Positions 5,325 to 28,625 of a stretch of DNA of 35,294 nucleotides are shown in pieces. The stretch spans positions 69,285 to 104,578 of the forward strand of contig NW_003126389.1 of assembly GCF_000003605.2 (NCBI RefSeq), given 5' to 3'. Source of the DNA: Saccoglossus kowalevskii (lineage: Eukaryota > Hemichordata > Enteropneusta > Harrimaniidae). The translations under genes were made by a program, and so were the position numbers. Position 1 is the first letter of the stretch; each line of letters starts with the position of its first letter. The notes under the pieces are model-generated. The model worked only from the letters and a program-made list of their open reading frames with translations, was not told where the DNA came from and did not search any database.

Positions 5325-5882
5325 ACATAGGGGTGATGCTCCTGTCGGTACCCAGCAAGATTTGTTCATGGATTCTTCTGAACGATATCCGCCAACAGCT
5401 GCTTCTCCACCAGCATCATGAGCAGTTTGGCTTTACTCCCAAGCGGTCCACCTTTGACCACATCTTGGCGCTACATGTGCTGTCTGAGTGGATGCGGGAA
5501 TTCAATAGAGGGTTCTTAGTAGCCTAAATTGGTTTCCGCAAGGCCTTCTACTGCATGTGTAGAGAGGCCCTATGGAGAATCCTCAAGGTTTATGGTATCC
5601 CCACACCTCTGGTGGATCTGATCTTCTCTCTGTATTCTGTAACAGAGAGTACTGTTAAGTGTGCTGGTGGCGTGTCTGTCCATTTTCCTGTCGAGGCAGG
5701 AGTTAGACAGGGATGCACACTGGCTCATACGCCTGTCAACACTTGTATGGACTGGATTATGGGATGTGTGATGGAAAGCACAGCTTGCGGGGTCTCGTTT
5801 GGAAGTGTCAAGTTAACTGATCTTGCCTTTGCAGATGATGCCGCATTGTTGATCGAGTTGGTTGATTCTCTAGTGGGGGGCT
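5325..5882 (+). pseudogene. LINE reverse transcriptase fragment
   Basis: Fingers and palm of a LINE reverse transcriptase are recognisable: YRGVMLLSVPSKI near the start, EQFGFTPKRSTFDHI at about 5427-5470, then after a stop at 5525 VEAGVRQGCTLAH near 5690-5730, and the catalytic box FADDA at 5828-5842. The active-site Asp pair is intact, but the stop at 5525 and the next at 5882 break the frame. Downstream pieces in changed frames (about 6100-6536) give the thumb and tail region. Confidence 0.8.
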
Positions 5883-6542
5883 GAACTGCTTGCACTCCAT
5901 GTGTTAAGACCAAGATTCAGGCAATCGAGACAGCTTAGATAACCATGTCAGGTCCGTCTCAACGAAGGGTGGGAATGTGGATATCACTAATTTGTTTGTC
6001 TACACCAACAGCATGACTAGCAGCTCTACCAGCTGTTATGCTGAGGTCGCCAGACGTCTCAGCCTTGCACATGGTGCTATGAGATCGCTGGACAAAGGTG
6101 TGTGGCGATCGCGAGGTGTAGAGGTGTAAAGGTCCGGGTCTTCAAGTCCTTTGTGCTCTTGGTCTTACTATATTCTTGTGAGGCCTGGACACTTACTAAG
6201 GGGCCGGGGCAACACCTTTGTGACAACCTCCATGCGGCGAATCTTTGGGTACTCAGGGAGGCCGGCATGATGAAGGTCACTTGATTGATTCATGACCACC
6301 AGCTGCGCTTCTTCGGGAATGTTGCTCACTTCCCGGGGAAAAACTCTACTGGCCAAATTCTGCCTGCACAGTATCCTGTCCAGTGGAGATGCCCTGTGGG
6401 AAGACCGATAGCAACGTGGCTGACGCAGATTAGTGGGTTTCTCGACGAGTTATGGGGCATGAACACTTGCTCAGAGGAGGCCGAAGGAGTGAGCGCAGCA
6501 AGGTGCCACCCCGGAATATGCCCAATGAATGAATGAAAGAAT

Positions 6543-6866: not shown

Positions 6867-7480
6867 GTGATGGTGGTATTTCTGCAGTAGATGGCATGGA
6901 ATTTATGATAATAACTACTGATAATCAATTGTATCAAACAAATTTAGAAATGGATTCATTTAATGGACCATTAACACCCAATGTACCTTTGATTGATGTT
7001 GCAATGTCCCAGGATGGATGGTTTATTGGTGTGACGAATGCATACGAATTGGTACATATGCCGTCGTTAGAAAATGGAGCATGGTCAAACCCAATTCCAG
7101 GAAGTGCCAGTGTTATCAGTGCGTGTGTATATAAAGGGACTACTATTTATGGAATAACAGCGAATAACGAGATGAAAATAAGAAATGCATTAAATCATCT
7201 TGGTCTCTTGCAGCGGATGGGTATCCGGAACAGGTCATACAGATAGCTACTTCGTATTCAATCTTGTACGGAATAACACCTAACAGTGTTTTGTATTTCG
7301 ATCCATCTCGGTCATGGGTAGATATGGAAATCGACTTTGGTGGCAATACTGTTAATGACTTTACATTTGTTGACCAGGGATCCATTATACCAACGTTTAG
7401 ATATTCGGGCATAATAGCTATATGTTATACAGTAAGCACTGGTGGAAATAGTGGAGGAAGTGGTAGCAGTTCAGGTTCAG
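6867..7480 (+). pseudogene. Exon A: tectonin-like domain with 1-nt frameshift
   Basis: The exon follows a TTGTAG acceptor and ends at a GTATGTGAG donor, entering and leaving in phase 1. The first half reads TDNQLYQTNLEMDSFNGPL and then WSNPIPGSASVISAC, the latter identical to exon B. At about 7188-7195 one base is missing relative to B, and the frame leads to a stop at 7243-7245. In the shifted frame the match to B resumes (SWSLAADGYPEQVIQI, then ITPNSVLYF) and ends with IIAICYTV and a Gly/Ser linker. Either the exon is dead or the base is a draft-assembly error. Since it is a 1-1 exon, skipping it would leave the rest of the gene in frame. Confidence 0.75.
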
Positions 7481-7639
7481 GTATGTGAGTTTTTGTTGGT
7501 TGACACCTACGATGTGCATTTAAGAGTAGGTTTGCACATATGTTCTTGTTGAGTTGGTGAGTTTAATGATTGAAACCACACGAAGTCTACCACGATGTAT
7601 AATTGTTGTTATCGTATACCCCAGGAATCAAATTTTACC
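7481..7639 (+). other. Start of the exon A-B intron
   Basis: Short non-coding stretch between the exon A donor and the left copy of the flanking repeat. Nothing was recognised in it. Confidence 0.4.
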
Positions 7640-8085
7640 ACAGTATCATATGCGAGTTCAGAGTATTTCATAGGTATATTGATAATAACTGTCACAAAGT
7701 AAATTATACGGTTAGGTTTTTAGGTGTGGAAGAAATACAGAAATACAATGGTCAGAAGTACCGTCACCGACCTTATGATTGGGTTCTTTACCCCAAAATA
7801 CACAATATAAATAATGTATAGATATATTGGTGTTAATATATGATCATACACAGTAATGCCAGGGTAGAACGTTGTCTATGCACACCTGTAACAAACTTGC
7901 ACGCATTTCAAGAAACACAAGTTCATGTGAGCAACGACATATTTAATACAGGATAACCTCAAATAATATTTGTAATGCAAATCATCAAATTTGAACATAA
8001 ATAATTAAAGCAATGAATACATTATCATTTAAATGCAAATAACCATGGTTAATGCCCTAAACAACATAGTCAGTACATAATCTGC
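7640..8085. repeat. Direct repeat, left copy (possible gypsy LTR)
   Basis: From about 7685 to 8082 this stretch aligns with 13820-14192 continued at 16218-16258. Shared stretches include GTACCGTCACCGACCTT, AATAATATTTGTAATGCAAA and ATTATCATTTAAATGCAAAT. Similarity fades leftward to about 7640. The two copies lie on either side of the degraded gypsy element, so they may be its LTRs; they are well diverged, as expected for an old insertion. I could not identify TG/CA ends or a target duplication. A putative polypurine tract lies some 560 bp further right than this repeat, which argues for caution. Confidence 0.65.
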
Positions 8086-8640
8086 AAATACAAGTAGATA
8101 ACGTTTTACACTGTCACTGGTAAACTGTTAACATCAATCACTGTACTGTAATGACGAACAGAGTAACGTAGAAATGACTAATTAATGTCAGAGACTATTT
8201 AGCTTTTATAGTTGACCCAGTTCCATGCACAGTGTTTGTTGTATCGCACGATTTAATGTCTCCTAGGAATTTTGTCTCAGTGACGGTTTGTCAAATAAAT
8301 TTCAGCATGGCTATGGAGACTCGCCAACTTTATCATGTAGAATTTTTTAGTTGGTAGAAGCACATGTAGCTGGCCATGTGGTTTCCAACCCAAAGTACCA
8401 GGAACTGGCAACAAACTTCTCAAGATATTAACTGTGACAGGCAGCAAGGAGAAATGATCCCTTTGTTCCACGCAATGTGGCAAGTTAATTTATTCAGGAA
8501 GGTTTTATTTTCTGAAGGATTAGTCACACCCATTAAAGTGTCAAATACAGCGCCATCTCTGGCCAAAATAATCAAACATACTTAAACTGGAAAAATTTAC
8601 ACTCCAACTATTAAAGTCAAGTTACCAAGAAATGACCCTG
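8086..8640. other. Unassigned stretch between the repeat and the gypsy polymerase
   Basis: If the purine tract at 8649-8660 is the gypsy polypurine tract, this stretch would be the U3 part of the 3' LTR of the minus-strand element. No counterpart was found on the other side. A 68-codon minus-strand open frame at 8277-8483 is unrecognised. Confidence 0.3.
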
Positions 8641-8648
8641 TGACATAT

Positions 8649-8660
8649 GCCCCCCACTTA
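8649..8660 (-). promoter_or_regulatory. Possible polypurine tract of the gypsy element
   Basis: Read on the minus strand this is TAAGTGGGGGGC, followed at once by ATATGTCACAGGG. A G-run next to a TG-starting sequence downstream of RNase H is where the plus-strand primer and 3' LTR of a gypsy element are expected. It is based on position and composition only. Confidence 0.35.
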
Positions 8661-8939
8661 AAGACAAACCTGTATATATGACTGAACACATTCATTAGAG
8701 TCATTTTATAAAATTTACATTCCAATCAAAGTGCAGCACAAAAAACAAAATCAATCCATTTCATTCACAACTACTATGAAAAAAGACTTCATTAATCAGG
8801 ACAATTGTGCCAGTTTTTATTTACAACTACTAAGTGGCAATTTGTCTCTTGTTAAGCCATATTTGATACCTAAAATTAAATTCACTATATTTTACTCAGT
8901 GCTTGAGCTTCTACTCAAATAATTTGCTTTCAAATTGTC

Positions 8940-9260
8940 TGATTCTTTTATGGAAACAATTCTATCGCAAAGTCTATCGCATAAGTCGACCATTTGATAA
9001 TTTTACTATGTTTAGGTAGATGAGGGGTTGGTCTATATGATGAACTCTCGCCCATTCAAGTATTGTTGGAATTTGTGAATACCCCATACCAATGCGAGAC
9101 ATTCCTTTTATATCACTGCACAAGAAGTTTCATTCCCGCGTATTTTGCGGCTTGCATATGATACATGAAATTGATGTCCATCATGTGACTGCAAAAGCAC
9201 CGCACACAAACCTTGATCTGAAACATCTGAATAAATGAAGTATCAAATTTTAGGCTGACC
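8940..9260 (-). pseudogene. Gypsy RNase H fragment
   Basis: Minus-strand translation gives YSDVSDQGLCAVLLQ, then HDGHQFHVSYASRKI, then KECLALVWGIHKFQQYL, the typical gypsy RNase H sequence. The first Asp and the Glu of KECLAL are kept. A stop just before KEC and further stops near the end break it. Confidence 0.75.
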
Positions 9261-9397
9261 TTTATGCATCAGATCAGAAAGAGGAGCTGCCACAGATGCA
9301 AATTTAGAATAAATTTACGATAACAGCCAAGAAGGCCAAGCAATGACTTGTCTTCCTTAATTATGTTTTGCCATCATGGCCTTAACTTTATATGGCA

Positions 9398-9860
9398 TCA
9401 TGTGCAATGTCCCCTTCCAGCCTGATGTCCTACGAATTCCAATTTCTCAAAGTCACTGAAGCATTTGCTTGGCTTAGCCGTCAGCCCTACCTTTTCTAGT
9501 TTGTCAAACAATTCACCTACTACTGGTAAATGGTCTACCCATACCTTTATGTAGACCAAAATATCGTGTAACATGTTTTCTACCCGACTTTTAAATCCAT
9601 AAAGAACTGCACGCATCAAAGACAGTTATTCTAATTAGTTTACGAAAGCCGATGCAAAACCTTTAACTGCCATCTTTTCGCTTTATCAGAACAGTAGGGG
9701 AGGCATATGGCGAATCAGACAATTCAATTATACAAATTTCTAACATAGTTTGAACCTCTTTATTAACAATTCCCTGCATAGCAAAAGGCGAAGAATATGA
9801 CTTAGACCTAATAGGATCATCAGATGTTAAATGAATGTCATGGCAACCCACTTTTGACTA
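9398..9860 (-). pseudogene. Gypsy reverse transcriptase fragments
   Basis: Two minus-strand frames carry the pieces. The right one (9851-9663) has DDPIRSKSYSSPFAMQ, ELSDSPYASPTVLIKRKDGS, the entry to the fingers domain. The left one (9619-9398) has the active-site region reading MLHDILVYIKVW and then GLTAKPSKC and KLEFVGH. The canonical YLDD box has become MLHD, so the first catalytic Asp is His. About 45 bases or more between the two pieces are out of frame, and much of the palm is missing. Confidence 0.85.
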
Positions 9861-10199
9861 CTGCCCTGGACTATCTGTAAGGTTGTTACATACCTACGAA
9901 GAAGCTGTTTTTCTTCTCTAATTTGCACGTCATTCAACTCTTCAGAAATATTTATATCTTCTATTGACCCCTTACCCATTAGAAGAGTTGTTGGTACTAG
10001 GTCTACATCTGAACCATCACACTGTTCCCCTCAAGGGTCTGCACACTGGCTTACTGTCAACCCTCCACAAACACATTCTATTACACCCACTTGCGTTATA
10101 TCAGTCCCTCCAGTATTTTAGTTACGCGTCTGATATTTCTTTAATAAATTAGCATGGTAAAGTTTAATCTTTCTTTTTCTGTTTTTCAATTCTTTAATC

Positions 10200-10606
10200 C
10201 ATTAACGCAATTCTTTCTTTCACTATTACGGGCCCTGACACTGTATCATTTGCAATGGAAAGTAACAAAAGTACCTGGTCACCCACCTCAAACTTCCTAG
10301 GCCTAACATGCTTATCTTATAAACGCTTTTCAGATTTTGATAACTTGTGGTGTGCCAGCTTGCAAGTATCCTCTAACCGTTCCCGAACGTCCATTAAATA
10401 TTGACAGGTAGACTTGATCCCAGGAGGAGTTATCTCCGATGTCCACAATAGTCAAAGGGCCTCTCATTGTTATCCCATACAATAACTCAAAGGGTGAGAA
10501 CCCCAAACTCTTATGTGGGGCTTATCTGTAAGCAAAAAGCAAGGACCCCAAATATATGTCCCAATCCTCCATTAAATTATTCAACCAATCCATTACAGGC
10601 TGGATG
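10200..10606 (-). pseudogene. Gypsy integrase carboxyl-terminal part
   Basis: Reading leftward from the gap, the minus strand gives HPACNGLVE, stop, FNGGL, the end of the catalytic core (normally HPxxNGLVERFN, with the catalytic Glu). Later come RERLE-like pieces and RKFEVGDQVLLLLSIAND, the beta-barrel end domain, then a GPVIVKE piece. Stops and frameshifts are frequent. It runs directly into a linker and then the reverse transcriptase, which is what fixes the unusual domain order. Confidence 0.65.
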
Positions 10607-10656
10607 NNNNNNNNNNNNNNNNNNNNNNNNNNNNNNNNNNNNNNNNNNNNNNNNNN
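10607..10656. other. Assembly gap of 50 N
   Basis: Fifty undetermined bases. The round number suggests a placeholder, so the true distance between the integrase halves is unknown. Confidence 0.95.
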
Positions 10657-11226
10657 TGCAGTGACTATAATTACATACAAAATTATTCAAGACAACAGAT
10701 GATGTCATGGACTTCGAAGATCTATTGTTTAGCCTAATAAGAGTCTGTTGTTATGTTAAGTAGCTCACAGCTTGGGGTTGGAAACAATAGTAAGTGAGGT
10801 AATCTTTTGTTTCCTTTGTTCTGTGCCCACTTGTATTTGTTAGCTGATCATATGAAGCCATGTAATAAATGATTGTGGTTGCCAGAGGACGAGATACCCT
10901 TTGGTACACTCTTAAGGTGGCATTGAAGACATTATATACCCAATATAAAAATCGTGTGAATACATTGTTGTCTTCAACGGCGATTGGTATGCAAATTACG
11001 TTTGTCTGACGCATTACAAGACAAAAGTCGAGTCTGTCGCGGAACAATACACAACTCACGTACAAACGTCGTGATGAAACCTCTCCTTTATTAATTAAGA
11101 GAGGAAACGGCCATACAATATGTTGATCTTGTGGTCTGACCTTTAGAACCAAATACAGTATGACGATAGTGGGTCGCGTTCGAATAGTGGGGTGATTTCA
11201 GATGGAATAACAGACATAATCTGAAA
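10657..11226. other. Unassigned insert within the gypsy integrase
   Basis: This stretch separates the integrase core from its end. It has a 133-codon minus-strand open frame (11152-10751) with no resemblance I recognise. It may be part of another mobile element whose left end is hidden in the gap. Confidence 0.3.
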
Positions 11227-11588
11227 TAATGTAAAACATGTTGAAAAAGTGACGTGCAATTTTAGCGAATTGTGGTAAAATGACGTAATAGCGAAATGTT
11301 GTTTTAGCGAATCTCTCTTGTCATTGTTGATTTCCTGTTCTCACAATACTTGTCTGTCGCGTGCCAAATCAAATGCGCAGTTATTACCTCCATAAACACA
11401 AAGAAAAACTGTCGTCGTGTAATTAGGAAGTGCCCAGATTTTTATATTCCTAATTACCGGATTACTGTATACAAATCCCCAAGCCTTGGCCATTTTGAAT
11501 TTATAATAAAGTCATTAGCGACATCTTGAATTAGCGATTCAATTCTCTCGCTAAATTCGCTACACGAAAAAAACATGTTTTACAGTAA
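11227..11588. mobile_element. MITE with AATGTAAAACATG-type terminal inverted repeats
   Basis: The left end reads AATGTAAAACATGTTG and the right end, reversed, reads TACTGTAAAACATGTT, giving a terminal inverted repeat of about 14 bp with one or two mismatches. Inside both ends lie copies of TTAGCGAATT/TAGCGA motifs in inverted orientation. No coding potential. This TACAGTAAAAC-with-TTCGCG style is common among short non-autonomous elements of aquatic invertebrates. The exact ends and target duplication are not certain. Confidence 0.65.
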
Positions 11589-11955
11589 ATCTTATTTCAT
11601 GTTACTCCCTGTTGTTAATTGGATTAAAACAGTTATATTTGCCCAAAACTGTATCGTACATCTGTGTAAAAAAATTCAAGAATGTCAACGCTATTTTGGG
11701 CTGCGAATACTGCGTCTACTACTGCGTCAGTTACGTCGTCGAATTTATTGAACAAGCAAGTACAAACGAAGCGAACAAACTGAAGAGTCGTCTACGTTAT
11801 GGCAAATACATGGTGGTGGAGTTTTAATGGAAACATTTATCTGTCTATTACAAAGCACACACAAGTGAAAAAAAATGTAAACTCAAAATTAAATTTTGGT
11901 TTAATATATGTTCATGTAATGCATTCTCTATGGCAGATCATGTGATATTTAATTG
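11589..11955. other. Unassigned stretch between MITE and integrase core
   Basis: A 71-codon plus-strand frame (11612-11827) is the only open frame and is unrecognised. It belongs to the insert that splits the gypsy integrase. Confidence 0.3.
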
Positions 11956-12400
11956 ACAGGGAAGCACTGGCTACAGGCGGAAGTCGGCCATATTGTCCAC
12001 CCACTTCTGGCATCGTTTAATCGGGAGAAGGCGACTTATTTCTCTCTCATGAGGTCAGACAAAAAAATTGAGTTCCCAACTCAGAGAGTATCTCATCAGG
12101 AATTCCTACATGACTATAAATGTCTACTAAGGCCCAGCCACTGCTACAGTACTTATATATTTAAGTGGACATGCCTCTGGTAGCATAGTCGAATACAGTT
12201 AGAACATACCGATTTGTTCTGTCAGTGACAGGATTAAAGGGCCCCACAAGATCAACTGTGACACGCTTAAATGGTGTATCAATATAGGGGGGGACCCAAT
12301 GGCGCCTTACCCGCTTTTCCTTTAGGAAATATCCGCTGACACAAATCACAGGACTGGCAAATAGCGTTTGATAGATCCATGCATTACTGGCCAGTACAAT
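11956..12400 (-). pseudogene. Gypsy integrase zinc finger and catalytic core
   Basis: The minus strand shows MHGSIKR and CQSCDLCQR (the end of the zinc finger), then PYIDTPFKRVTVDLVGPF with the first catalytic Asp, RYVLTVFDYATRGMST, and after a stop VGIPDEILSELGTQF. The last motif is normally TDQGSQF, so the second catalytic Asp is replaced by Glu. The match ends near 11960 and resumes on the other side of the insert. Confidence 0.8.
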
Positions 12401-12713
12401 TGTGTATATTTTGTACAGTGTTTTCTTATTTCATCACCTCAACCTGGTATACCATTGGAAGAACCAACTGTTTGAATTATCAACCTCGATCTATAAAAAG
12501 GAGACTAAAAGACTCTATAAAACAAACCATTATCCAATATGACAGTGACAAGTTCTTTGGTCCCTCTATCATGCAACTTTGAAAACTCTTACACTCGTAA
12601 AGGATTGGCTTTTCTGATGATTTAACCTGTACCCTAATCTGAACTGCCTGTGTCAAGTCTGTTAAAGATGGCAAGACGACAGTCCAGTTGCAACCAACAT
12701 CTTCTTCAACCAT
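12401..12713 (-). other. Linker between gypsy protease and integrase
   Basis: A 77-codon minus-strand frame (12713-12480) continues from the protease with no clear domain. In this element group a non-conserved stretch joins protease to integrase. The remainder is degraded. Confidence 0.4.
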
Positions 12714-13088
12714 TCAGTCCCAACAGCTTTGAAATCTCAATTCTATACTACGGTTCTCAATTTCCGTTGAGTAAGGGTCCAAAGCACCATGAATATTTCC
12801 AACAATTAAATCATAAAGTCGAAATTTAATACAGATGACTGTAACCTCACCTTTATAATAAGGGGTGTCTATATGCAACTTTGCAACAGGAGCTCGCCTA
12901 CATGTCCCATCTAACAAGATGTATGTACGAGACTTCTTAGTAAGTTGATTCAGTTTGACTAATGCCTTTTTAACCACAACCCTGTTACACCCAATATCAC
13001 ACAAAATTGTTATTTTACAACCATTAGGTAGTCCCTCCACCCCAGGCATACTCGATACCACCCATGTTGGGCGTACTGCACTTTTCAT
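12714..13088 (-). pseudogene. Gypsy retropepsin-like protease
   Basis: The frame gives NGCKITILCDIGCNRVVVKK, where the retropepsin active site D-T/S-G appears as D-I-G, then PVAKLHIDTPYYKGEV and the second conserved motif YDLIVGNIHGALDP. This is the protease type of Mag/Gmr1-like gypsy elements. The active-site change and the interrupted connection to neighbours indicate a dead copy. Confidence 0.75.
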
Positions 13089-13667
13089 AACCTCATAATT
13101 GGTTGACCTGTCTTTGGGAAGGGTCCTGCAAACTGTGAGTGCCTTTTCGAAAGCAAAGCCCCGAAGTTAATTCCCCACATAGCAGCTGGCCAATGACAAA
13201 TCTCAAATCTTTCTAAATATGCATCTAAGTCATCTCCCTCTTTAAATAGAGTCATACTAGAAACCTTAACAATACCCTCATTGTATTTATGGTGAACCTC
13301 CCACGTCTCTTTCCTCATGTTCCCCTTTCCAAAGTTTGAACTTGTCAAACTCAAACTGTCGCTGGGCTACCTTCTCTCGTTCACGTGCCTCTCTCTCGCA
13401 CTGTGCGTCTTTATATTTCTCCTTTGCTAATTTTCGTTCTTCCCTTATCTTGGTTAATTCAAATTTATTATGCTTTTCCTCTCGTTCATTCTTTTCCCTT
13501 TCCCGTTTCACATTTATCCACCTGTTTCTTTCTTCTTTTGTAAAGTCTGTCAAATCATTATCATCTAATCCAATCTCTTGCCCTAACTGTTTAACTCTAG
13601 TCACATCGAAATTCATATTAATTATTAAGGAGATAAGTAGATGGAGGAATGAATATCTATTGACCAA
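13089..13667 (-). pseudogene. Gypsy gag fragments
   Basis: The first frame (13667-13287, likely true start at the internal ATG near 13617) has a short globular head followed by a charged coiled coil (EREKNEREEKHNKFEL). A second, shifted frame (13354-13085) contains FKEGDDLDAYLERFE, the start of a SCAN-like capsid segment found in this type of gag. The rest of the capsid and the zinc knuckle are missing or scrambled. Confidence 0.7.
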
Positions 13668-13779
13668 GAGTATAAAATATCTCAGAGGGGGCGCAAGAAG
13701 TAATTGGTGTTATTACACACTATGTTTTCACTACTGGCAATACAGTTTTTTTTAAAAAAAAAAGATGGTCACTTTAATT

Positions 13780-14192
13780 GAGCGATATCATCCTACCACT
13801 ATCACCAAAATGACAGAAGGTGAATTATACAGTGAAGTACTATGGTGCGGTGGAATTTCCAAACGAAATTCAGAAATACAATGGCCAAAATGTAGCAAAA
13901 GTACCGTCACCGACCTTGTGAATGGGTTCTTTACCCAAAATATACAATATAAATAACGTATAGATATATTGGTATTGATATATGATCAAATTGATTAACG
14001 CCAGGGTAGAACTTTGGAATAGAACACGCATAGCTGTAACAAACTTGCACGCACTTCAAGAAACATTCATGTGGTTAATGAAATTATTTAATACTGGATA
14101 ATTTCAAATAATATTTGTAATGCAAATCATCAAATTTGACCATAAATAATGAAGCAATAATTACATTATCATTTAAATGCAAATAACCATCA
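13780..14192. repeat. Direct repeat, right copy, first part
   Basis: Counterpart of 7640-8078. Similarity is strongest from about 13885 to 14190. The sequence stops abruptly after AAATGCAAATAACCAT where the Tx1/L1-like LINE is inserted, and resumes at 16218. In one frame both copies translate to a related peptide (NYTV....EIQKYNGQ), so the repeat may derive from a coding segment. Confidence 0.65.
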
Positions 14193-16217
14193 TTGATTCA
14201 TTGGGTGAAATCGTATTACTGTAATGTGGAAAGTTCGATTATCAATAATGGTTTACCACAGGTTATTGTAAAGTTCAGAAGGGGGTCAGACAACGGGACT
14301 CTTTGTCCCCTACATTGTTTATTCTGGCGTTGGAAGTGTTTTTAATCTCCATGCGGGCAAATCCAAATATTCAAGGTATTAAGTTGGGTGATGGAACTTG
14401 TAACATATGTAACAATTGCTGATGACCTATCATTTGTTTAAGCTTTTGAATTGCTTCCAAAAAGTAGGATTGAAAGTAAACACAGACAAAACTGAAGCCC
14501 TTTGGCTTAGGCCGTGGAAAAATCGAAAAGACACACTTTTTGGTATTAAATGTCCCAATGAGCCAATCAAGAATGTTGGTGTTTATGTTTCCGATGATGT
14601 TTCGGGCTGCTACTTTGAATTATGCCAAGCCAATGGAAAATTTACAGTTAACATTGAATCTGTGGAAGCAAAGAAATTTAACTTTAATTGGTAGAATGCA
14701 GATTGTGAAGAGTTTTGCAATATCAAAATTTGTGTATCTGTTGTAATTGTGTGAGAATGGTCTCTGTATCAAAGAAAGTTTTACTTGAGGTAAATAGAAA
14801 GTGTTTTAATTTTATTTGGCATGGCCATGACCGGGTTGCCCGCAATGTTTAGATCTCAGACATAGGAGAAGGTGGCTTGTAAGCCCCTGATATCTTTACA
14901 CTGTATGGTACATTTCGTATAATGTGGTTGAAAAGGTACGTTGACCCTTCAGTGACCCATGCATGGAAAAAAAATATTCCTCAACAAATTAAAGCCTGTT
15001 GGAGGCAACTTAATATTTAGTTGTAGCTACGGACTTGAATATTTGAAAATCAACCTGTCCGAATTGTATCGTGAAACCTTGTTAGCTTGTTCTACTCTTC
15101 ACAATTTAGATATTAAAAATCAAATATCACATAATATCATATAATTTGGAACAACAAGGATATCCTAATTGACAACAAATCCGTGTTTTCCCTACAATTG
15201 CCAATAAGGGTATCAGTTGCATTGGTGATTTATTTCCAAAAAACACACCCGTTAGTATTGCTGTCTTATCCGCTAAACATAACCTAACCAGACTTGAAAT
15301 ATATTTTCTGAGTTGTGTTTTTAATGTAATTACAAAAAACACGATGGAAGCTTGGTCACATGTTTTCTATCTTATCCAAGGATTTTCGTACGATTCGGTG
15401 CCAAATATTTTTAGTGATGGTGAGAATATAACGGTATCTGTGCTTAATACAAATTGTATAAAAAATAACTTTTTTTGTGCAAAGACTATTCATTCAAGTA
15501 GTTAAGATTTTAAACTCGACTTTGCTGCTATGTCTAAATATTGTGATTTACCATTTAGGATAGCAATTGACACGAAATCAAAAGAATTTCAATTTAAGTT
15601 ACTACATAAAATATTGTTCACTAATTATGATCTTTTTAAAATGAAATCAAATCATCAAAGGTCAGTAGTCCCAATTGTTCGTTCTGGCACCAGGAAACGG
15701 AAACTACTTACTTAACTACTTTTTTTTATTATTATTGTAAATATACAAACAAATGTCTGCACTTAGAGATGTATTTAAAAATATCTTAGGTCCAGATGCT
15801 CTTTCCCTCAAACAGATAACTTTAGGCTGTACTGACTTTTCAGTGTTGGCACATTATTTGGTACTTTGGGGGAAGCAATATATTGATAAATGTAAAATGA
15901 GTAAGAGTATACCGAGTGATGTATATTTTCGAAAGGCGGTAACTGAAACATGCTGGATTGAAAAGCATGTAGCTATATCTAAAAACAAATTGGAATTACA
16001 TTTACGGAAGTGGTCTATTATCTCTGATAGTGTGTAAACATTTTTCATTTCATTTCAGTGCATTAGCAATTATCCTTTCTTGTTTTCTTTTGTTTCTATT
16101 ACTTTTGTTTGCTTGTTTTTTCGCTTTGTAAGATGTAATTAATGTTTATTGTAATCTATGTAATGAAACTATATGGAACAAAATTGTGTAAAGAGAAAAA
16201 ATAACAAAAAAACAAAA
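14193..16217 (+). mobile_element. 5'-truncated Tx1/L1-like LINE inserted in the repeat
   Basis: Plus-strand pieces give the second half of a reverse transcriptase and the carboxyl-terminal region of a Tx1/L1-type LINE. They include LNCFQKVGLKVNTDKTEALW at about 14442-14506, LWKQRNLTLIGRMQIVKSF, FIWHGHDRV, and the last domain in a frame at 15753-16037. The catalytic box appears as IADDLSF near 14415-14435, partly out of frame. It ends in an A-rich tail (16190-16217). Both sides continue the same repeat sequence, so the borders are precise to a few bases. Target duplication is about AACCAT versus AACAAT, blurred by the tail. Confidence 0.8.
15753..16037 (+). pseudogene. Carboxyl-terminal region of the Tx1/L1-like LINE ORF2
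   Basis: A 94-codon open frame containing LSLKQITLGCTD, LWGKQYIDKCKMSKSIP and LELHLRKWSII, the pattern at the very end of Tx1/L1-type ORF2 proteins in invertebrates. It is followed by a stop and the short AT-rich 3' region of the element. Confidence 0.65.
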
Positions 16218-16258
16218 CAATGGTTATTGCCCTAAACAACATAATCAGTAGTAACATT
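16218..16258. repeat. Direct repeat, right copy, second part
   Basis: Sequence ATGGTTATTGCCCTAAACAA and the following AATCAGTA matches 8044-8082, continuing the repeat interrupted at 14192. Beyond about 16258 the two copies no longer align. Confidence 0.7.
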
Positions 16259-17159
16259 ATTGCTGTATGGCTACCTATTTCACAAATAAAACGATTTGTG
16301 ATTACATAACTTGTTTCGTCCCAAAATTGCAAAAATCACTAAAAAAGAAACTTCTTCAGAACTAAACATGGATCTGAAAGTCGTTTTTATCATCCATGTA
16401 TACTCCTCAGTCTGTGAAGCTCTTTGTGAGTGATCACGTGGTTTAACTGCCATATTTGATTTCTTCTACACAAGATTTTTTTTACTGATGCCACATAATG
16501 CTCCATTGGATTGTTTCTAAGGGATGCTTTTTAAACAATCAGCTGGATTGTTGTCATGTAGCATTTACGTCAAATGTTTTAGCTACCATTTGGACTTTTG
16601 ACCAAAATGACAAAAATTATTCAAAGAATATTTCCTTCTAAAGAGTGTTTTAAGCGATGAACTGAATATTTGGCATATAGCATTGATAACCATATCTTCT
16701 AACAAGAAAAAAGACTTTATTTTGATCGACCACATGGTTTGGCCACCAACTTGAATGTTCGCCAAACATGACCTTAATTTGAGGTACTTTTGGGTGCTTT
16801 TAGCAATCAAATTGTTATTTTTCATGTAGCTGAATGACCGAATACTTTTCTAAAATAAATAACATTTATATCACTGGGAAAATATTTAAGCATATGCAGC
16901 CTTCCAATTCCAAGACTCAAAAAAGCTATCTGTAGTTTCATTTTTATGTCATGGCCTGAGGTTAATAAGTGAGGAATTATTTTCCTCTTAGTATGAGTTC
17001 TAGACCATGATTGAAAGGATAGACTGACGTCCCAAGACCGTCAATCCGTGATAAAAACGAATTTAAAATATACAAGACATATACGTATTATTTAGGAAAC
17101 CGCAAGAAAACAGGTGTTGTTTACGTAGCTTGTAATATTGAATTTGCATCATGTTTTAG
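16259..17159. other. Intron sequence before exon B, no feature seen
   Basis: AT-rich sequence without recognisable element or exon. An 80-codon minus-strand frame at 16583-16825 is unrecognised and probably chance. Confidence 0.4.
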
Positions 17160-17795
17160 GTTCTACTGGTTCATCAGTGGCAGATGGCTTTGACACATTA
17201 GTAATAGATATTGATAATCATTTATATCAAACAACATTGGAAATGGAATCATTTAATGGACCATTAACACCTTATGTTCCTTTGATTGATGTTGACATGT
17301 CCCCTGATGGATGGCTCATTGGTGTAACAGTTGGATATGAATTAGTACATATGATGTCATTGGAAAATGGCATGTGGTCAAACCCAATACCAGGAAGTGC
17401 TAGTGTGATTAGTGCATGTATAGGTGAACAGGAACTCATTTTTGGTGTAACAGCAAATAACCAGTTGAGAGTGCGAAATGGGGTCCAATCATCGTGGTCG
17501 CTTGCGGCCTATGGGTACGCGGAGCAGGTTATACAAATAACCGCCACCACAATGCTTTTCGGACTTACACCAAACAGTCTCCTGTATTTTGATCAACCTA
17601 CTGGTTCCTGGATTGATACTGGAGTTGATTTTGGTAGCAACGTTATGGTAGATATTTCATTTATCGATTCAGAAAATATTGTTCCAGTAATAGCGGATAT
17701 TTGTGTGATTGCTGTATGTTACATTGGACAACAAACATCATCACAACTATCAGAACCATCACAGTCTAATGAAGAATCTAGCAGTACAAATTATG
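17160..17795 (+). CDS. Exon B: tectonin-like propeller domain
   Basis: It starts after the acceptor TGTTTTAG and ends at ATG/GTAAAT; both borders are phase 1, giving 212 codons. The protein shows about four to five blade-like units: DNHLYQTTLEMESFNGPL to DGWLIGVT; GYELVHMMSLENGMWSNPIP to LIFGVT; NNQLRVRNG to MLFGLT; and NSLLYFDQPTGSW onward. It closes with DICVIAVCYIG and a Ser/Glu/Gln-rich linker. The repeating G-W, V-I and I-x-G-V pattern is that of tectonin-type propeller repeats. It is the sister of exon A and more distant from C and D. Confidence 0.8.
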
Positions 17796-19908
17796 GTAAA
17801 TATAAACAATTATGTTTTTGCTTATTTTATTTATTTTATTTTTTTATCACTTCACAGAACCACTACTGTATCACGATAGCTTGTAATACAAACTGGGTTA
17901 TTGAAAACTAAAGTTTTGTCATCTCCATACTTAGGATAGTCATTATGTTATGTAATACTCCGAGAAATGACATCTACATTACAGACCCAGTGATAGAATA
18001 CGTCAATATATTGTTTAACAATGGGTTTAAAGAAGGCTAAATATGTAATGTTGATATATTCACAAATACATCAACTTTTTGTTTATGAAATCAATTAACT
18101 ATGGTATTCCAAAAAAAAAACTTATTTTATTGATGGAAATGTCTTCAAAAGGTTAAAGTACCTTACCATACTGGTAAACTGTCAGCTGGTGCATTGTGTT
18201 CCATAAATATGATTAATGTCCCAATTCATTGTTTTGTTACCCAACACAGTATCTCATATGATAAATGCATATTATAAACTTTGATCCAAGAACTAACGTT
18301 ACTTTAATGTGATCTGATTTCGTGGGTATTTTGTGCTAAAATGTACCCTACAATTGTAAAGCAAATTCATATCACACATCTGGTGATTATAACAGTGTGT
18401 ATGATATGTTGTTAAATTGTTAAAAGTTAAATGGCTAGTGATATGTCATGTGTATGCCTTCGGAAGACGCATTTGATAAGATCATTCTAGAGACAAACAT
18501 ACTCAAATATTATGCATATTTTCGGCTGTGTTTTAAACTATTATATAAGTGTATCCCCAACTCCATATAAGGAGTTCTAGAACACTTAGCACGGCTTTGG
18601 AATTTGTGTTTTCCACATATACAGTTCTAATATCCAATTGTGTCTTCTTATAATGTTTTAGTGAAACATATGATTGTTTTTCTAGCGCGCCATTTCGATA
18701 AAAAAAGATAGACCCTTCATATAGTTTACTCACGCACATTAAAGTTAAGTGTTCTGGAATTTCAAATATAGCATCGGGATACACCCATATAATCGTTTAA
18801 TACTTCAGACTGAGAAATGTACTGATCTTGTTCTTTTTGTCAGTACACACACAATATACAACAACATTTCAAAGTAAATATAATTGAAATTGTCGAAAAT
18901 CCCTAGTTAACAATTATTGAACACATATATAAAATAAGTGAGTTGAGATTCACTTGGTCGCTTTCATTATATGACAGACGACGCGATAAGCATAAACTAA
19001 TTACTTCTGATATTCTGTCCTGGTAAAGTGTGTTTATTGGGTAAGATACATTCCATGACAGCAAGCACGCACCCAATCTTTATAGTGAGGCTATCTTTAT
19101 AGAACATAACACTATACACCAGCATACCCTTTGTCATATAATTCATTTTATTTGACCTTTGAACAGCGACTTTTAAATCAATCAGAAAATATTTTTGCTT
19201 CATCATAAACAATGTAATCCAATAATAATAATGAAATCACAACGTTATTTAACATGATATTTTATATTTTATGTGTAGGTACCATTGGTAGGACAATAAC
19301 ACATTTATTTTTACATTTTATTTTGACAATAATTTATAATGTGTTTTGGGGGAGTCGGATCCCTTCTGATATATTGTTTTCCATCAGTGGAAGTGTTTCT
19401 GTCGGTATGCCAGTTTGTATTACTGGTGTACAATGCAACATAATTCACTTCACATTTACACAACTTGATTGGGTTTTGGTAATATGTTTAGTGTTTTTTT
19501 TATATACCCGTACTTTCTTATCATCCATGCAGACAACATGGTGCAGTCATAAAGGCTCTGGTTTGATTTTGTCATCACAATGTTATTTTCATCTAGCTTG
19601 CACATATATTTGTCACCTTTCTAATTTGTTGAGGTTCATTTGTCCTAGTTTTATGGTTTCCAGGGCAACAGAAACAACATTGGTGATTTGGGGCTGCAGT
19701 TTAAAACCGATCATACATTGTGTTTCTGTGTTTCTTAATCTGGGGACGCTACATCAAAAAAGTCCTAATTATCATCAAGAGCAATTCTATTTATCTTTTC
19801 TGTGATTTTTTGAGTAATACCCACTTAAACTCTAAAGTCACAAAATTAAAGCCATAAGAATATTGTAATTCTCATGTGAATATTCTCTATTTTCCATTTC
19901 TTTCTTAG
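17796..19908. other. Intron between exons B and C
   Basis: About 2.1 kb. It contains a T-rich stretch right after the donor, an A-run at 18110-18120, and no recognisable transposon. One long plus-strand open frame, described separately, lies at 19254-19805. Confidence 0.5.
19254..19805 (+). other. Unrecognised 183-codon open frame within intron B-C
   Basis: The frame is long for this AT-rich sequence. The protein is rich in hydrophobic residues, Cys and His, with two or three stretches that could span a membrane (for example FLHFILTIIYNVFW). No motif is familiar. It begins inside a run resembling a splice acceptor (TATGTGTAG at 19269-19277). It could be chance, a remnant of a mobile element, or part of an alternative exon. 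Confidence 0.2.
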
Positions 19909-20586
19909 AAAAAACAACACTTCTCGTTGGTAATGACAACAATTTGTACACACGTGATCGACGTGGCTCTGTGTCCCTTGTTCCATATACCAATGGTATT
20001 ATCGATATTGTTGTCATGAGTGTCATGGTGCTAAAGTATACAATGGACGATCAAGGATGGACTGAGATAGTACCAAACTCTTGCTGTGTCATTAGTGTAG
20101 ATATTACAGGCAACTTCATAATTGGTGTCGGAATCGATAAATATCTGTATACAAAAGATACATTGGATGGTGTTTGGAATGGCCCTGTTGCAGACAGTGG
20201 ATTCGTGCAAAAGGTAATCGCATTCAATGAAGGACAACAAATTATATTAGCAGTGGATGCACATGGTGTTATAGTAATGCCAAGTGGTAGTGTACCCTTT
20301 TGGCAAGATGCAGAATTCAATGTCATTGTTAAAGATGCTATGGTGTTACCATCGGGTTCTCTTGATCCAATATTGCATGATGACCTTTTATTTCAAGCAA
20401 TATGCTATGGTAAATTGCCAGATAGTTCTACTGGTATGGATAGTTCTGAAGGATCTGGCATCTCTGACGGGTCGAGCAACTCTGATAATTCAGATGGATC
20501 TGTTGACTCTGGTTCTACTGGAATCTCCGACGGATCTGCTAAGTCTAGCTCCACTTCAAGCTTTGACAGAATATACCCAGCAACAG
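19909..20586 (+). CDS. Exon C: tectonin-like propeller domain with Ser/Asp-rich linker
   Basis: Acceptor TTTCTTAG, donor CAACAG/GTAAAC, phase 1 on both sides, 226 codons. Blade-like units include VGNDNNLYTRDRRGS, GWTEIVPNSCCVISVDITG followed by FIIGVGIDKYLYTKDTL, and GVWNGPVADSGFVQKV. The LYT(R/K) and GVG-D pattern is closest to the tectonin consensus of all four domains. The domain ends with FQAICYG, matching the ICY/VCY ends of A and B. A linker of roughly 50 residues of Ser, Gly and Asp follows (for example GSSNSDNSDGSVDSGS), probably extended and possibly O-glycosylated. Confidence 0.85.
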
Positions 20587-20726
20587 GTAAACAGTGATAC
20601 ATATATAAAATGAAACTTTTTCTCTATGCATATATTTCTCTATGATAATTTACATTTTAGAAAAATCAAAAAAATATTACTTACTTACAATAAATTGTCA
20701 TAAATTCTATTATAAATTTCTACAAG
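20587..20726 (+). other. Short intron between exons C and D
   Basis: A 140-nt intron, GTAAAC at the left and CTACAAG at the right. It is the shortest in the gene, and its phase is 1. Confidence 0.7.
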
Positions 20727-21392
20727 ATCCTGACACTGCTGTTGCTATGCCTGGTGCACCACATTCGGCAAGTCACTATATAACAGGAGAATTGGATCAA
20801 TGCAACGTGATTGCTGTTGGGAAGGATGGTTATCTATATACTGGAGTCTCAATGGGTGACCATGCATATCAATACCATGGCCCAATTCATGGCTCATGCT
20901 GTGTGATAGACATTGCTAGTCTACCTGACAAAACACTTGTAGGCGTTCAAAAGGACAATAGGTTATATGTTAAATCAAATTTAGTGGAAGGTAGTTGGAT
21001 TCGAAGTTATACAGATAGCTGCTGCATTGTAAGTGTGGACGTGTTACCTGATGGTGAAATAATAGCAGCCAGTATCGAAGATGTGTTGCTCATTAGATCA
21101 AGTATAAATGCTGAATGGGATCTAACAATTCCTATTGGCATGCACATTGCAAAACTTACCTTAATTCCAAACAGTTTTGATATAATTGGGATTAGTGAAG
21201 ATAGTACACTCATTATTCATACTGACGGTATGTGGAAGACACTCGACAATGACCTATTCGTTCTACCAATCACTGACTTGGCTGTTGATGAGGATGGCAA
21301 TTATGGTGCCTTGGTTCCGGGAATGTCAGAATTATCAAATGGGGACCAGATTCATATTGTCAGCATTGCATATGTCGATCTTCCTCTTCAAG
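20727..21392 (+). CDS. Exon D: tectonin-like propeller domain
   Basis: 222 codons between the acceptor TTTCTACAAG and the donor TCAAG/GTATTG, both phase 1. Units include NVIAVGKDGYLYTGVSMG, GPIHGSCCVIDIASLPD, LVGVQKDNRLYVKSNLVEG, GSWIRSYTDSCCIVSVDVLP, DGEIIAASIEDVLLI and IIGISEDSTLIIH. The paired Cys in GSCCVI, DSCCIV and (exon C) NSCCVI recur at the same blade position, which may indicate a conserved structural pair. The domain ends HIVSIAYVDLP, without the Cys of the other domain ends, and lacks a long linker, consistent with being closest to the membrane. Confidence 0.85.
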
Positions 21393-21639
21393 GTATTGTA
21401 TACACTTGTTTATGCAGCCCTCCATCCATTTTTTATTGTCAATGCTAACACCAAATTGTTTTGGCAGAGTGTAAGTGAATGAATTTAGTAATGTTTCTTC
21501 ATTCAATATTGGATATTAAACACACTAGAAGCTATTAGTTGAATACGAAATTGTAACAGGTACAATTTTACAATAGAACATATAAATTGATAAACGCTAC
21601 TCGGACTGATAAATATGATATGTAGAAGATAATATTTGG

Positions 21640-22600
21640 TAATCGTAGTCCTTAATAACTAATAAAAATAACTAGACGTTTCGAGCAATGGCTTTTTATC
21701 GATAGCATAGAAGAACATGTTTAAACGTACAGGTAGAACATAGGAACGTAAGAACGCGCAAGTACTATAAAATAGAATCACTAAAAGATTCCACAATAGA
21801 ACATATAACACGCCTTAGGTAGTAAGCTCAACAAATGAGTTGAACTGTTTGTTAATTCCATGGGGTTCTTTAGTTTCAAGGCGGAATATAGTTTCCTCTT
21901 CGACACGCCTGAGCTGATTCTCGTTGCCATTGACAACACATGCACCAGAAATAAACATATCTGTAATGTTATGTTCACTAGAATTAAAATGAAATGAAAC
22001 CGGATAAAAACATTTCTGTCTTGTTTGTCGTAGATGCCCAGTAAACCGATCACCCAATCGACGAACTGTAGAACCAATATAAAGTTTCCTCATGTGTTAC
22101 ATGAAATGCAATATACAACATTTATGGTAATACAGCTGAAAGCATATTTAACCTCAACATATCCCTTGGGACCTGAGTCTGTAATACAAGGACAAGTATT
22201 ACATCTGGGTCGATTACACGGGAGAGAACCATATTTCTCTGGGTCTCCCCTTTCACCCGTATGTACCAATAACCCCCTTAAATTAGTGTCACGGCGCCAG
22301 GCGGTAGTAGGCATTTGTGGAAACGTGGAACTAGTCTCCTCGCTGGTTTGTAAAATGTAAAAATGTTTGTACATAATGATTTTAATCTTGACATTTAAAG
22401 GATGGTATGTAAGTGCCAAAATTAAACGATCGTGATTGCCGCGGGAAACCGTAGAACCAATACAATCGATCTGATCTAGACATTGACATAACCTTGGCCA
22501 ATGCTTTCCCAGTAACATTACGCGGATAACCCCGTTTTGTGAAGTAAGCACAACAATAGAACACAACTAAGTTGAAAAAAGCACGTGTAACACAACTTTA
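21640..22600 (-). mobile_element. Penelope-like element, 3' part with GIY-YIG endonuclease
   Basis: Minus-strand pieces read FTKRGYPRNV, LALTYHPLNVKIK, then TAWRRDTNLRGLLVHTG, CNRPRCNTCPCITDSGPKG and INVVYCISC; after a 1-nt frameshift near 22090 they read KLYIGSTVRRLGDRFTGHL and later ETKEPHGINKQFNS. This is the end of a Penelope-like reverse transcriptase plus its GIY-YIG nuclease (YCI and YIG motifs kept). Downstream, at about 21650-21700, the minus strand has GCTCGAAACGTC, a motif seen near the 3' ends of such elements. The RT core itself is absent, so the copy is 5'-truncated. Confidence 0.8.
21815..22566 (-). pseudogene. GIY-YIG region of the Penelope-like element
   Basis: Two overlapping frames (22566-22090 and 22093-21815) together carry the Cys-rich linker (CNRPRCNTCPC) and the nuclease. 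The break lies between the Cys-x-x-Cys motif at the end of the first frame and the YIG motif of the second. A second frame difference near 22480 separates the FTKRGYP piece. The copy is therefore not able to make the full protein. Confidence 0.75.
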
Positions 22601-23329
22601 TTAATGCCCACTCAAATCTGACAGAATGCATAGTTCATGACAGTGGAAGTAATGAATACAAAATAGTTTTGGCAACCGTTCATGCTACAGACCAGAGATA
22701 ACATTTTTCAAACCCGGGCGTTAGGAACAGCTTCTCAACGACTGTTGCATTTTGCTCTTTCACTGTTACAATCTCAAACTTTCGACTCAGTGTATCTTCA
22801 ATTAGTAAGTTAAAATTTAAAGTAAGAAACAGCATCGTTGCATTACAAATATCACACTGAGCACACAATTGGATATTACAACAACAACATGTAATGAAAT
22901 ACCAAGTTCTGCCAAGTTCATTATTGAAATTATCGGCTGTCTTGTTTCAATGTCCATGACAACTATAATTAAAATTTGGAAGCTATTGCGACGAGACATA
23001 ACAATGTTGATTTACAGATCTTTCCTTGAAATGTAATGATTGAATATTTCGAGAGAAGTTATTGTAGTTTTCACTAATGTCTAAAGTTCCAGTGAATATT
23101 TGGTTTATAGATATTTCTTTGCATAATGAAATTTAATAGACGAAATAACATATGCAGATTCGAAACTTCTACTACTTATGACTTTGTCAGGAATTCTCAT
23201 CTCACAAGCAATTTGAACATATCTTAAATATTACCACATGAATTATCAACTTATACAAAAAAATACACAACAGGATTTTTCAAGACGAAGTCGAAAATAT
23301 CACTTTTTACCAACAATTGAATTCTCAAA

Positions 23330-23615
23330 TATAAATGAACAAATATGAGAGCGCTCAAGCTGAGGCACCTATATGTATAATATCCAAGCAATCGGATTTG
23401 CGGTTTTCATCAAGAATTCAAAAATATTACGTTTTACCAAAAAAGACATAATTTTTTCAAAATTGGAGAATGCGAGATATCATTATGAAATGAACAATTC
23501 AAGAGTAGTCTACACCAAGTATCAAAGAAATCAGATGATTTTCAAGTAGAAGATAAAAAAACGACGACGATGGACAACCATACCGACGTGATTTGGGCGA
23601 GTCACGTGGATTACA
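23330..23615. repeat. Degenerate interspersed repeat of the GACGACG type
   Basis: It contains two related pieces, CCAAGCAATCGGATTTGCGG with TTCAAG-like follow-up, and TCAAAGAAATCAGATGATTTTC, and ends with ACGACGACGATGGACAACC and GGGCGAGTCACGTGG. Repeats with this order (aa-atcgga pieces, then a GACGACGGACG run, then a short GC-rich end) are scattered in many marine invertebrate genomes. No coding potential. Confidence 0.45.
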
Positions 23616-23687
23616 TTTGCAGATGTGAATCAAGGACTACACAATTAAGGGATACTTTTAATTCAACTATATTTTCATTCATTTCAG

Positions 23688-23714
23688 ATTATATGGGGTC
23701 TCCTCAGACGATAG
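23688..23714 (+). CDS. Exon E: 27-nt juxtamembrane micro-exon
   Basis: Bounded by CATTTCAG and ATAG/GTAAGT. In phase 1 it adds nine residues, reading D-Y-M-G-S-P-Q-T-I with the first base of D from exon D and the last G passed on. Both splice sites are strong, and 27 nt keeps the frame. Its small size makes it a candidate for alternative use. Confidence 0.65.
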   Translation: MIWGLLRR

Positions 23715-23959
23715 GTAAGTTGGGAAAATCAAAATAAAGTCCATGAAAACTGGCCATAAAAACAAATATTCTGTATTTAGGTTTTAAGTATTGTTTTCGG
23801 TTTGCTTCGCTGTTATTTATTATTTTGTTTTCCGTTTAATTTCCAGAGAATAATTTTCACTGCACAAGTACAATATAAAAAACTGTATATAAACATTTTT
23901 TCAAAGGCCACTTAAATGTACATTTATTGGTTCTAGTTCAAATGTATCTTTAATTACAG

Positions 23960-24034
23960 ATGACCAGGACTTTTCTACTACTGGTACCTCCAAAGTCGAA
24001 CATGGTTTCATTTCTTCTGAAAACAGCGGATCAG
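23960..24034 (+). CDS. Exon F: stalk exon
   Basis: Acceptor TTAATTACAG, donor TCAG/GTAGGT, 75 nt, phase 1 on both sides. It encodes 25 residues rich in Ser, Thr, Asp and Gly (DDQDFSTTGTSKV, then SSENSGS), typical of an extracellular stalk next to a membrane span. Confidence 0.75.
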
Positions 24035-24146
24035 GTAGGTTAAGTCCAATACAAAGCATCCCTTATTCACGAATAGGAAGTAATACATGAGACAGTTTTA
24101 CCTAGATTCAAGTAAATTTCACTAGAATTTTTTTGCCAAATTCTAG

Positions 24147-24334
24147 GTACTTCGACCAAGATTGTAATGCCGGTGATTATAGTTGCTATACTGATCGCCG
24201 GATGTATTGGTGTATATTACTACAGAAGAAAACACTATGAAAAGATGGAAAAAGCTACAAATAAAAAAGAAAGTAAAATAAAAAACAATTTCAAGGCGTC
24301 GAACGAGATCAAGGCGGCCAAGCAGCCCGATTAG
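24147..24334 (+). CDS. Exon G: transmembrane helix and cytoplasmic tail, gene end
   Basis: It begins after TTCTAG, in phase 1. The first residues are GTSTK, followed by a hydrophobic helix (IVMPVIIVAILIAGCIGVYY), then the basic stop-transfer run YRRKHYEK and a tail of about 35 residues full of Lys, Asn and Glu, ending AKQPD and TAG. The charge pattern gives an outside amino terminus and inside carboxyl terminus. The tail has no ITAM, ITIM or other signalling motif that I can see, so signalling would need a partner. Confidence 0.85.
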
Positions 24335-27500: not shown

Positions 27501-28625
27501 ATGCCTACCGAAACAGAAGAACAACACAGACCAAATGTCCAAGCAACTCAACAAAGCTGAAGAGATTATGAGAAAAAAAAACTTCTTGCGTCTATCAAAA
27601 ACGTAATTGTGACAAAAATTCGAGACATCAAGAAACTCATAGAAACCATCCAGGAATGCGACGAAATAATAATTGAAGAAATTGAAAACGAAGACGAATA
27701 CACAGTACTTTGAAGAAGCGGATGATTATGTTATAATTATCAACGAACATGTTACACGTTACGAAAACTTCATAGAGAGAAACACTCAGCAGAGATCGAT
27801 ACCCGAAGTAAGCTCAACGCATGATACCTCCATGACATCGTCTACAACAAGATGGACGATCAACCTCCCCAAACTGCAGTTACCAATAGTTGAAGGTAAC
27901 ATTCTAAAATGGACTACGTTCTTTGACATATTCACATCGTCACTAGATAAGAACCTTAACTTAGAAGACGTCCAGAAATTTCAATACTTGATTGCTCAGC
28001 TAGGAGGTGACGCATGAACGATCGAGGGCTTCCAGTTGACCAATGACAACTATTCAGAAGCGTAAGCTATCTTGAAACAACGGTATGGTCAACAACACGA
28101 AATTATTTCAAGCTACAAGAAGGCATTGTGGGAACTACCGCCACCAGATAATACGTTATCCAGCATGACGAACTCTTATGACAATCTCCAAACTCACATC
28201 GGTGAAAGTGAAGATTCGTATGGTGATTTACTTGTGCCATTCATTTTTAAGAAATTACCGGCAAACGTTAAAACCCAGATTTTCTGCAATCATGGCAACA
28301 CAGTGTGGTCACTACACGAATTAAAGGAAGCGGTCAACGAAGAAATTCAAGCAGATAACCCCATAGAACACTTCAATGTCAATTTCTCCAATGAAAGGTG
28401 TATACCCTCTATAACATCGTTTCATATTGGGTACAAATCTCCAAGATCTACGGTCGCTAAACATATGAGCTCCTTCAAGTTCGCCTACTGCAAAAGGCCC
28501 CACTCACACGTTTGTGAAACCGTTGTCGGACTTAACACGTAATGCAATTGTGAAAAGAGACAGATTGTGTTTCAAATGCTTAGGACATCATGAGGTAAAT
28601 GACCGCAAATCCAAATTTCATTGTA
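27501..28625 (+). pseudogene. BEL/Pao gag with DUF1759-like segment, broken
   Basis: From an ATG at 27501 the frame is interrupted by a stop at 27558, a shift near 27700, stops at 28015 and 28062, and one after 28540. The first part has a short coiled coil (KLLASIKNVIVTKIRDIKK). The middle has NLPKLQLPIVEGNILKWTTF and LNLEDVQKFQYLIAQLGGDA, the DUF1759 signature of BEL/Pao gag; after it come AILKQRYGQQ and ALWELPPPD. The end has RLCFKCLGHHEVNDRKSKF followed by HCRI, a zinc-knuckle remnant with changed spacing. Confidence 0.8.

Follow-up and report, generated by a model that had tools for sequence, protein, structure and literature searches.

Tectonin- and tachylectin-type β-propellers are known mainly from soluble lectins or intracellular proteins. 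Here we describe a gene of the hemichordate Saccoglossus kowalevskii that is predicted to place several related propeller domains in tandem before a single membrane span. The gene lies in a 35,294-nucleotide stretch of contig NW_003126389.1 (C1914:69285-104578; hereafter the window) from an assembly of 572 Mb in 4830 contigs (GCF_000003605.2). With a probability of about 0.6, the window holds the 3′ portion of a gene from a tandemly duplicated family whose products are type I surface proteins with multiple propellers. If this is true, such a membrane-anchored, multi-domain and tandemly duplicated version of these lectin folds would represent a new class of animal surface recognition receptor.

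Among the closest described systems, tachylectin-1 and carp egg lectin are soluble single-propeller proteins. The tectonin-type lectins (Physarum tectonins, tachylectin-1 and fish-egg lectin; Pfam PF19193) resemble the domains described here in having repeats of 40–50 residues arranged in a propeller. They differ in being six-bladed, single and soluble, whereas the predicted product of this locus has several domains, modelled with about five blades, before one membrane span. Several tectonin-type proteins are reported to bind bacterial lipopolysaccharide (LPS) and Physarum tectonins are described at the surface of the organism (PMC2707011), and tachylectin-1 and carp egg lectin are classed as 6× β-propeller/tectonin proteins (PMC3269628). 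Human TECPR1 and TECPR2 (hTectonin), like the proteins encoded here, carry several repeats in one chain. The best matches to the Tectonin model in this genome lie on another contig (C1938), in a gene that we take to be TECPR2-like (our own label). Roles in autophagy and lysosome damage are described for TECPR proteins, which are not known to possess a signal peptide, a furin site or a membrane span.

Tachylectin-2 is classed in the same source as a 5× β-propeller lectin (PMC3269628), comparable to the five-blade models of the domains described here. It differs in that eukaryotic tachylectins-2 are secreted single propellers (PMC8023676), and in that the window exons do not match the Tachylectin model. 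For coral tachylectin-2, positive selection and an immune role have been proposed, with one of the four tests of that study not significant (PMC2880987). The YWTD propellers of LRP5/6, LRP4, LDLR and megalin show a similar fold in alignments, at 4 to 10% sequence identity. These are surface proteins with tandem propellers as binding heads, in which six-bladed YWTD propellers alternate with epidermal growth factor (EGF)-like domains; the present gene differs from them, since no EGF-like domain was seen between the window exons. No membrane-anchored multi-propeller lectin was present among the listed literature matches for tectonin and tachylectin propellers, which comprised titles and the beginnings of abstracts and were retrieved in part with ill-chosen terms.

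The exons of the window gene, in window coordinates, are as follows.

Exon A, 6867-7480, + strand: domain exon assigned to the B1 type from its position and similarity, with a 1-base deletion near 7204 that disrupts the frame.
Exon B, 17160-17795, + strand: predicted β-propeller domain (B3 type) with a Ser-rich linker; 212 codons, phase 1-1.
Exon C, 19909-20586, + strand: predicted propeller-type domain with a Ser/Gly/Asp-rich linker; 226 codons, phase 1-1.
Exon D, 20727-21392, + strand: predicted membrane-proximal β-propeller domain; 222 codons, phase 1-1.
Exon E, 23688-23714, + strand: 9-codon stalk exon, phase 1-1.
Exon F, 23960-24034, + strand: 25-codon Ser-rich stalk exon, phase 1-1.
Exon G, 24147-24334, + strand: one transmembrane helix, a 36-residue basic tail and the stop codon TAG at 24332-24334.

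Exons B to G are all open, with AG/GT borders around B to F, AG before G, and phase 1 at each join. The joined reading, counted from the first whole codon of B, comprises 755 residues, of which 694 form the outer part and 36 a basic tail beyond one hydrophobic span. A preliminary description, made from the sequence without searches, had proposed a one-span membrane protein in which three domain exons are joined in frame by phase-1 introns to two stalk exons and an exon with a transmembrane helix and basic tail. The coordinates and codon counts of B, C and D, all the joins, the stalk and transmembrane exons and the single span agree with the sequence, as do the proposed Ser-rich linkers, which follow B and C (56 residues in the case of C). 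The present analysis adds a larger gene, with a fourth domain exon (A) at 6867, together with X-type and further B-type exons, a furin-type site and a depletion of sequons. Exon A, which was kept outside the tree described below, was judged by eye to be similar to the intact B1 exons of two neighbouring genes (genes 3 and 4 of C1914). The tail encoded by exon G contains Y-E-K-M, which we take to resemble the endocytosis motif YxxΦ.

A genome search with exon B returned at least 47 matches at E ≤ 1 (exon B included), at least 34 of them at E ≤ 0.001. Four genes lie in tandem on C1914, the window gene being gene 1, and a transmembrane exon was found for all four. Gene 4 has the order X-B1-B2-B3-C-D-E-F-G; gene 2 has B2-B3-C-D-E-F-G, with a run of N upstream; and gene 3 has X-B1, a run of N and then F-G. 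Elsewhere, contig C805 carries X-B-C-D, two stalk exons (read by eye) and a transmembrane exon, and contig C4561 carries X-B-B together with a transmembrane exon; at the threshold used, neither a C nor a D exon was found there. The transmembrane exons of genes 2, 3 and 4, C805 and C4561 resemble exon G. Exon E and its splice sites are kept in genes 2 and 4, and exons F and G in genes 2, 3 and 4. Genes 2 and 4 and C805 retain the succession of exons that runs from D to the transmembrane exon, and gene 3 retains part of it. These tandem paralogues, and the others on further contigs, bear out the earlier proposal that the protein belongs to a family, the plan of which, as read from sequence, is X-B(1 to 3)-C-D-E-F-transmembrane.

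A domain tree was calculated from 33 of 35 chosen rows, C3425_2 and C3950_1 being dropped as too short. The X (4), B (14), C (5) and D (5) rows each lie on one side of a branch, and clustering as tight was seen in 0/200 label shuffles, in a tree for which the program warned of long branches. Because each of the four groups holds members from more than one contig, the X-B-C-D order is probably older than the gene duplications, and only B has probably multiplied within genes. On an 11.9-kb contig, C2808 (L011 to L014, L022 and L050), B-type exons recur about every 2.5 kb, four of them full and one partial, the two later full exons being almost identical in the tree; this array may be a recent exon amplification or an assembly artefact. 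Domain exons with highly regular 40-residue blades are found on C2388 (L003 and L032) and C3160 (L027), and C2388 carries two near-identical copies; of these exons, those of C2388 stand nearest to the Pfam Tectonin model.

Profile comparisons indicate that domains B, C and D are remote homologues of one another. The test comprised 30 rows (X 4, B 14, C 5, D 4 and the C2388/C3160 type 3), trimmed and aligned beforehand with the family profile; under the profile of any one of the five domain types, every row of the remaining four outscored all 700 shuffled controls. For the C2388/C3160 profile, this held for 4/4 X, 14/14 B, 5/5 C and 4/4 D rows, and hhalign related the window domains to C2388 with a probability of 99.1. 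Two C2388 exons narrowly pass the Pfam Tectonin cut-off (33.2 and 31.3 bits against 30), and the C2388 member was the only one of 14 in alignment A5 to match this model at E up to 1. The five window pieces yielded no match to it at E up to 10, a search in which the HMMER filters discard most matches above about E 0.1. As hhalign and profiles connect the window domains to C2388, and these domains fail the Pfam model, they are, on this evidence, remote relatives of tectonin-type blades and not members of the Tectonin family. The tectonin-like character claimed in the preliminary description therefore holds as remote homology through the C2388 paralogues, and not as a direct match of the window exons. 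The C3160 exon, although of the same type as those of C2388, gave no Pfam Tectonin match at E up to 1, which argues against relatedness through such intermediates. The Pfam Tachylectin model matched neither the five window pieces (E up to 10) nor the 14 A5 members (E up to 1). Direct Pfam or PDB sequence matches of the window exons were of no use, and 14 weak PDB matches to a C2388 exon were left unused (best E 0.0042, with a bacterial outer-membrane/pilus construct; fish-egg lectin, E 0.019). Among 28 pattern matches, no prokaryotic relative of the C2388 exon was confirmed.

Exons B and D are predicted to fold as roughly five-bladed β-propellers, in which a ring of four-stranded blades is closed by terminal strands (exon B model: predicted local distance difference test (pLDDT) score of 77.8 and predicted template modelling (pTM) score of 0.76). 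For B and D, the models favour the propellers proposed at the outset over a non-propeller fold, and we read about five blades in each; for C, the propeller type corresponds to sequence homology. The exons of C2388 and C3160 comprise four whole blades and one split blade. LRP6, LRP4, megalin and nidogen are among the proteins whose propellers match the B and D models structurally. Tachylectin and tectonin structures were absent from the 50 structural matches listed per model, which does not imply exclusion. A vicinal Cys-Cys pair is located at the inner-strand start of blades once in C, twice in D and once in a C2388 exon (L003), and none was found in the B or X exons counted. The pairs of C, D and C2388 may form a vicinal disulphide.

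The X exons carry a sign of passage through the secretory pathway. In each of the six that were examined, a furin-type R-x-K/R-R motif precedes Q no more than about 20 residues past a plausible acceptor (RSRRQ in two C1914 exons, RLRRQ on C805 and C3425, RFRRQ on C4561 and RYKRQ on C3950), a motif that we take to fit furin. Four of these exons are the X rows of the tree, that of C3425 is their sister in the tree and that of C3950 was assigned by eye; further X exons may lie among the weaker genome matches of exon B. Upstream of the C3950 copy lies a candidate signal exon whose donor sites are weak.

In addition, N-x-S/T sequons are depleted. The 15 C1914 exons contain 3 sequons against 30.2 expected, with 0/3000 shuffles as low, and 34 reversed S/T-x-N motifs against 30.3 expected; the shuffle P values given here are overstated, since the paralogues are related and blade motifs are fixed. 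The 20 domains from other contigs contain 7 against 25.5 expected (reversed, 33 against 25.5), a set reduced to a single row for each type on each contig (12 rows) contains 3 against 17.8 (reversed, 22 against 17.7), and the C2388/C3160 rows alone contain 0 against 4.8 (P = 0.0047). By gene on C1914, the counts are 0 against 5.3 in gene 1 (P = 0.0028), 0 against 8.1 in gene 2 and 1 against 12.2 in gene 4. Depletion of the sequon without depletion of the reversed motif fits passage through the endoplasmic reticulum, and fixed blade motifs around Asn may contribute to it.

The domain types differ in the ratio of nonsynonymous to synonymous substitution rates (dN/dS). For whole domains it is lowest in D (0.35; 0.21 to 0.62), followed by B2/B3 (0.57; 0.40 to 0.78), B1 (0.62; 0.31 to 1.37), X (0.64; 0.37 to 1.30) and C (0.80; 0.57 to 1.14). 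With strand borders taken from the D model and transferred by alignment, loops show more amino-acid change than strands in B2/B3 and B1 (P = 0.0004 in both cases), as well as in C (P = 0.0014).

We propose that a family protein would begin with a secretion signal and a propeptide that is cut at the furin-type site. It would continue with domain X, between one and three B domains, C and D, and would end in a short stalk, a single transmembrane helix and a short tail; for the window gene, we infer the signal peptide. Each domain would be encoded by one exon between phase-1 introns and fold as a roughly five-bladed β-propeller, an arrangement in which duplication, loss or skipping of a domain leaves the frame intact. 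The exon plan, its conservation among paralogues, the remote homology, the furin-type motif and the sequon depletion are read from sequence, and the fold of B and D from models. At the cell surface, the elongated string of propellers would bind repeated ligands, most likely glycans, multivalently through many weak contacts. The faster-changing outer domains B and C would make contact, the constrained D would stand near the membrane, and the propeller faces would be free of glycans. Because no signalling motif was recognised by eye in the tails of family members, signalling, if any, would proceed through a partner or through clustering, or there would be none, as in adhesion or capture.

Multivalent surface recognition is the likely function, and the family may recognise microbes or other cells; recognition is our leading guess because LPS binding by tectonin-type proteins and positive selection in coral tachylectin-2 have been reported, which are analogies and not a test of recognition. 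Tentatively, and with the odds somewhat against it, we suggest an undescribed family of membrane-anchored multi-propeller recognition receptors. Such a family would have arisen by duplication of single-exon propellers between phase-1 introns, and tandem duplication of genes and exons would have diversified its outer domains. Its proteins would be trimmed by furin and would lack N-glycans, which would keep the sugar-binding faces from binding the proteins' own coat. The sequon depletion would then point to a simple and testable way in which a glycan-binding receptor is kept from binding to itself.

Several observations weigh against these proposals. No convincing signal exon was found upstream of X for the C1914, C805 and C4561 genes, and no window piece matched the Tectonin model. 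The fifth blade is incomplete in both the B and D models, which were built on five window sequences. Besides the overstated shuffle values, the sequon deficit of gene 3 is not significant alone (2 against 4.5 expected; P = 0.14). Positive selection is not supported, dN/dS being below 1 in every whole domain type (0.35 to 0.80); the excess of change in loops is unclear in X (P = 0.12) and D (P = 0.24), and faster loops agree with contact by the outer domains and equally with relaxed constraint. Whole-domain dN/dS below 1 would also suit structural or adhesive surface proteins, acting in cell–matrix or gamete-coat adhesion and not as immune receptors. Such a role is in keeping with the short tails, in which no signalling motif was recognised by eye, and with structural matches that include LRP6, LRP4, megalin and nidogen, which bind other proteins. 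We nevertheless consider it rather unlikely, as tandem duplication, a variable number of B domains and fast outer loops are more like recognition families, a resemblance that is suggestive only. It is quite improbable that the exons encode secreted lectins, the transmembrane exon being rarely used or part of another gene: similar domain exons without a known membrane exon exist on C2388 and C3160, for which the downstream DNA lay outside the comparison, but stalk and transmembrane exons follow D in the same phase in genes 1, 2 and 4, where the stalk exons are conserved, and in C805.

Within a family of membrane-anchored multi-propeller proteins, the window copy could itself be a decaying member. 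Exon A (B1) is readable in two frames, with one base lost near 7204, and no B2- or X-type exon was found in the window. Compared with the C exons of genes 2 and 4, exon C is 11 residues short, and the lost residues probably contain a strand. The 36-residue basic tail is unlike those of genes 2 to 4, in which the protein stops ten residues beyond the span. We regard decay as doubtful, however, because exons B, C, D, E, F and G are all open with intact splice sites, and dN/dS for D is similar in pairs with the window copy (0.31 and 0.38) and in the pair without it (0.37). The frameshift in exon A may be a read error, X could sit in the adjoining upstream run of N (C1914 60248-69284), and 50 bases of N interrupt the window at 10607-10656, between exons A and B. 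As the exons are of phase 1-1 and can be skipped in frame, a shorter working protein from the window copy is possible, and decay likewise.

Runs of N, either gaps or withheld stretches, flank the window at both ends. Outside the gene, the window contains a reverse-transcriptase fragment at 5528-5884 (E = 2.6e-6, just under the Pfam cut-off) and two adjacent DUF1759 fragments at 27673-28542, a domain that we take to be associated with BEL/Pao-type retroelements.

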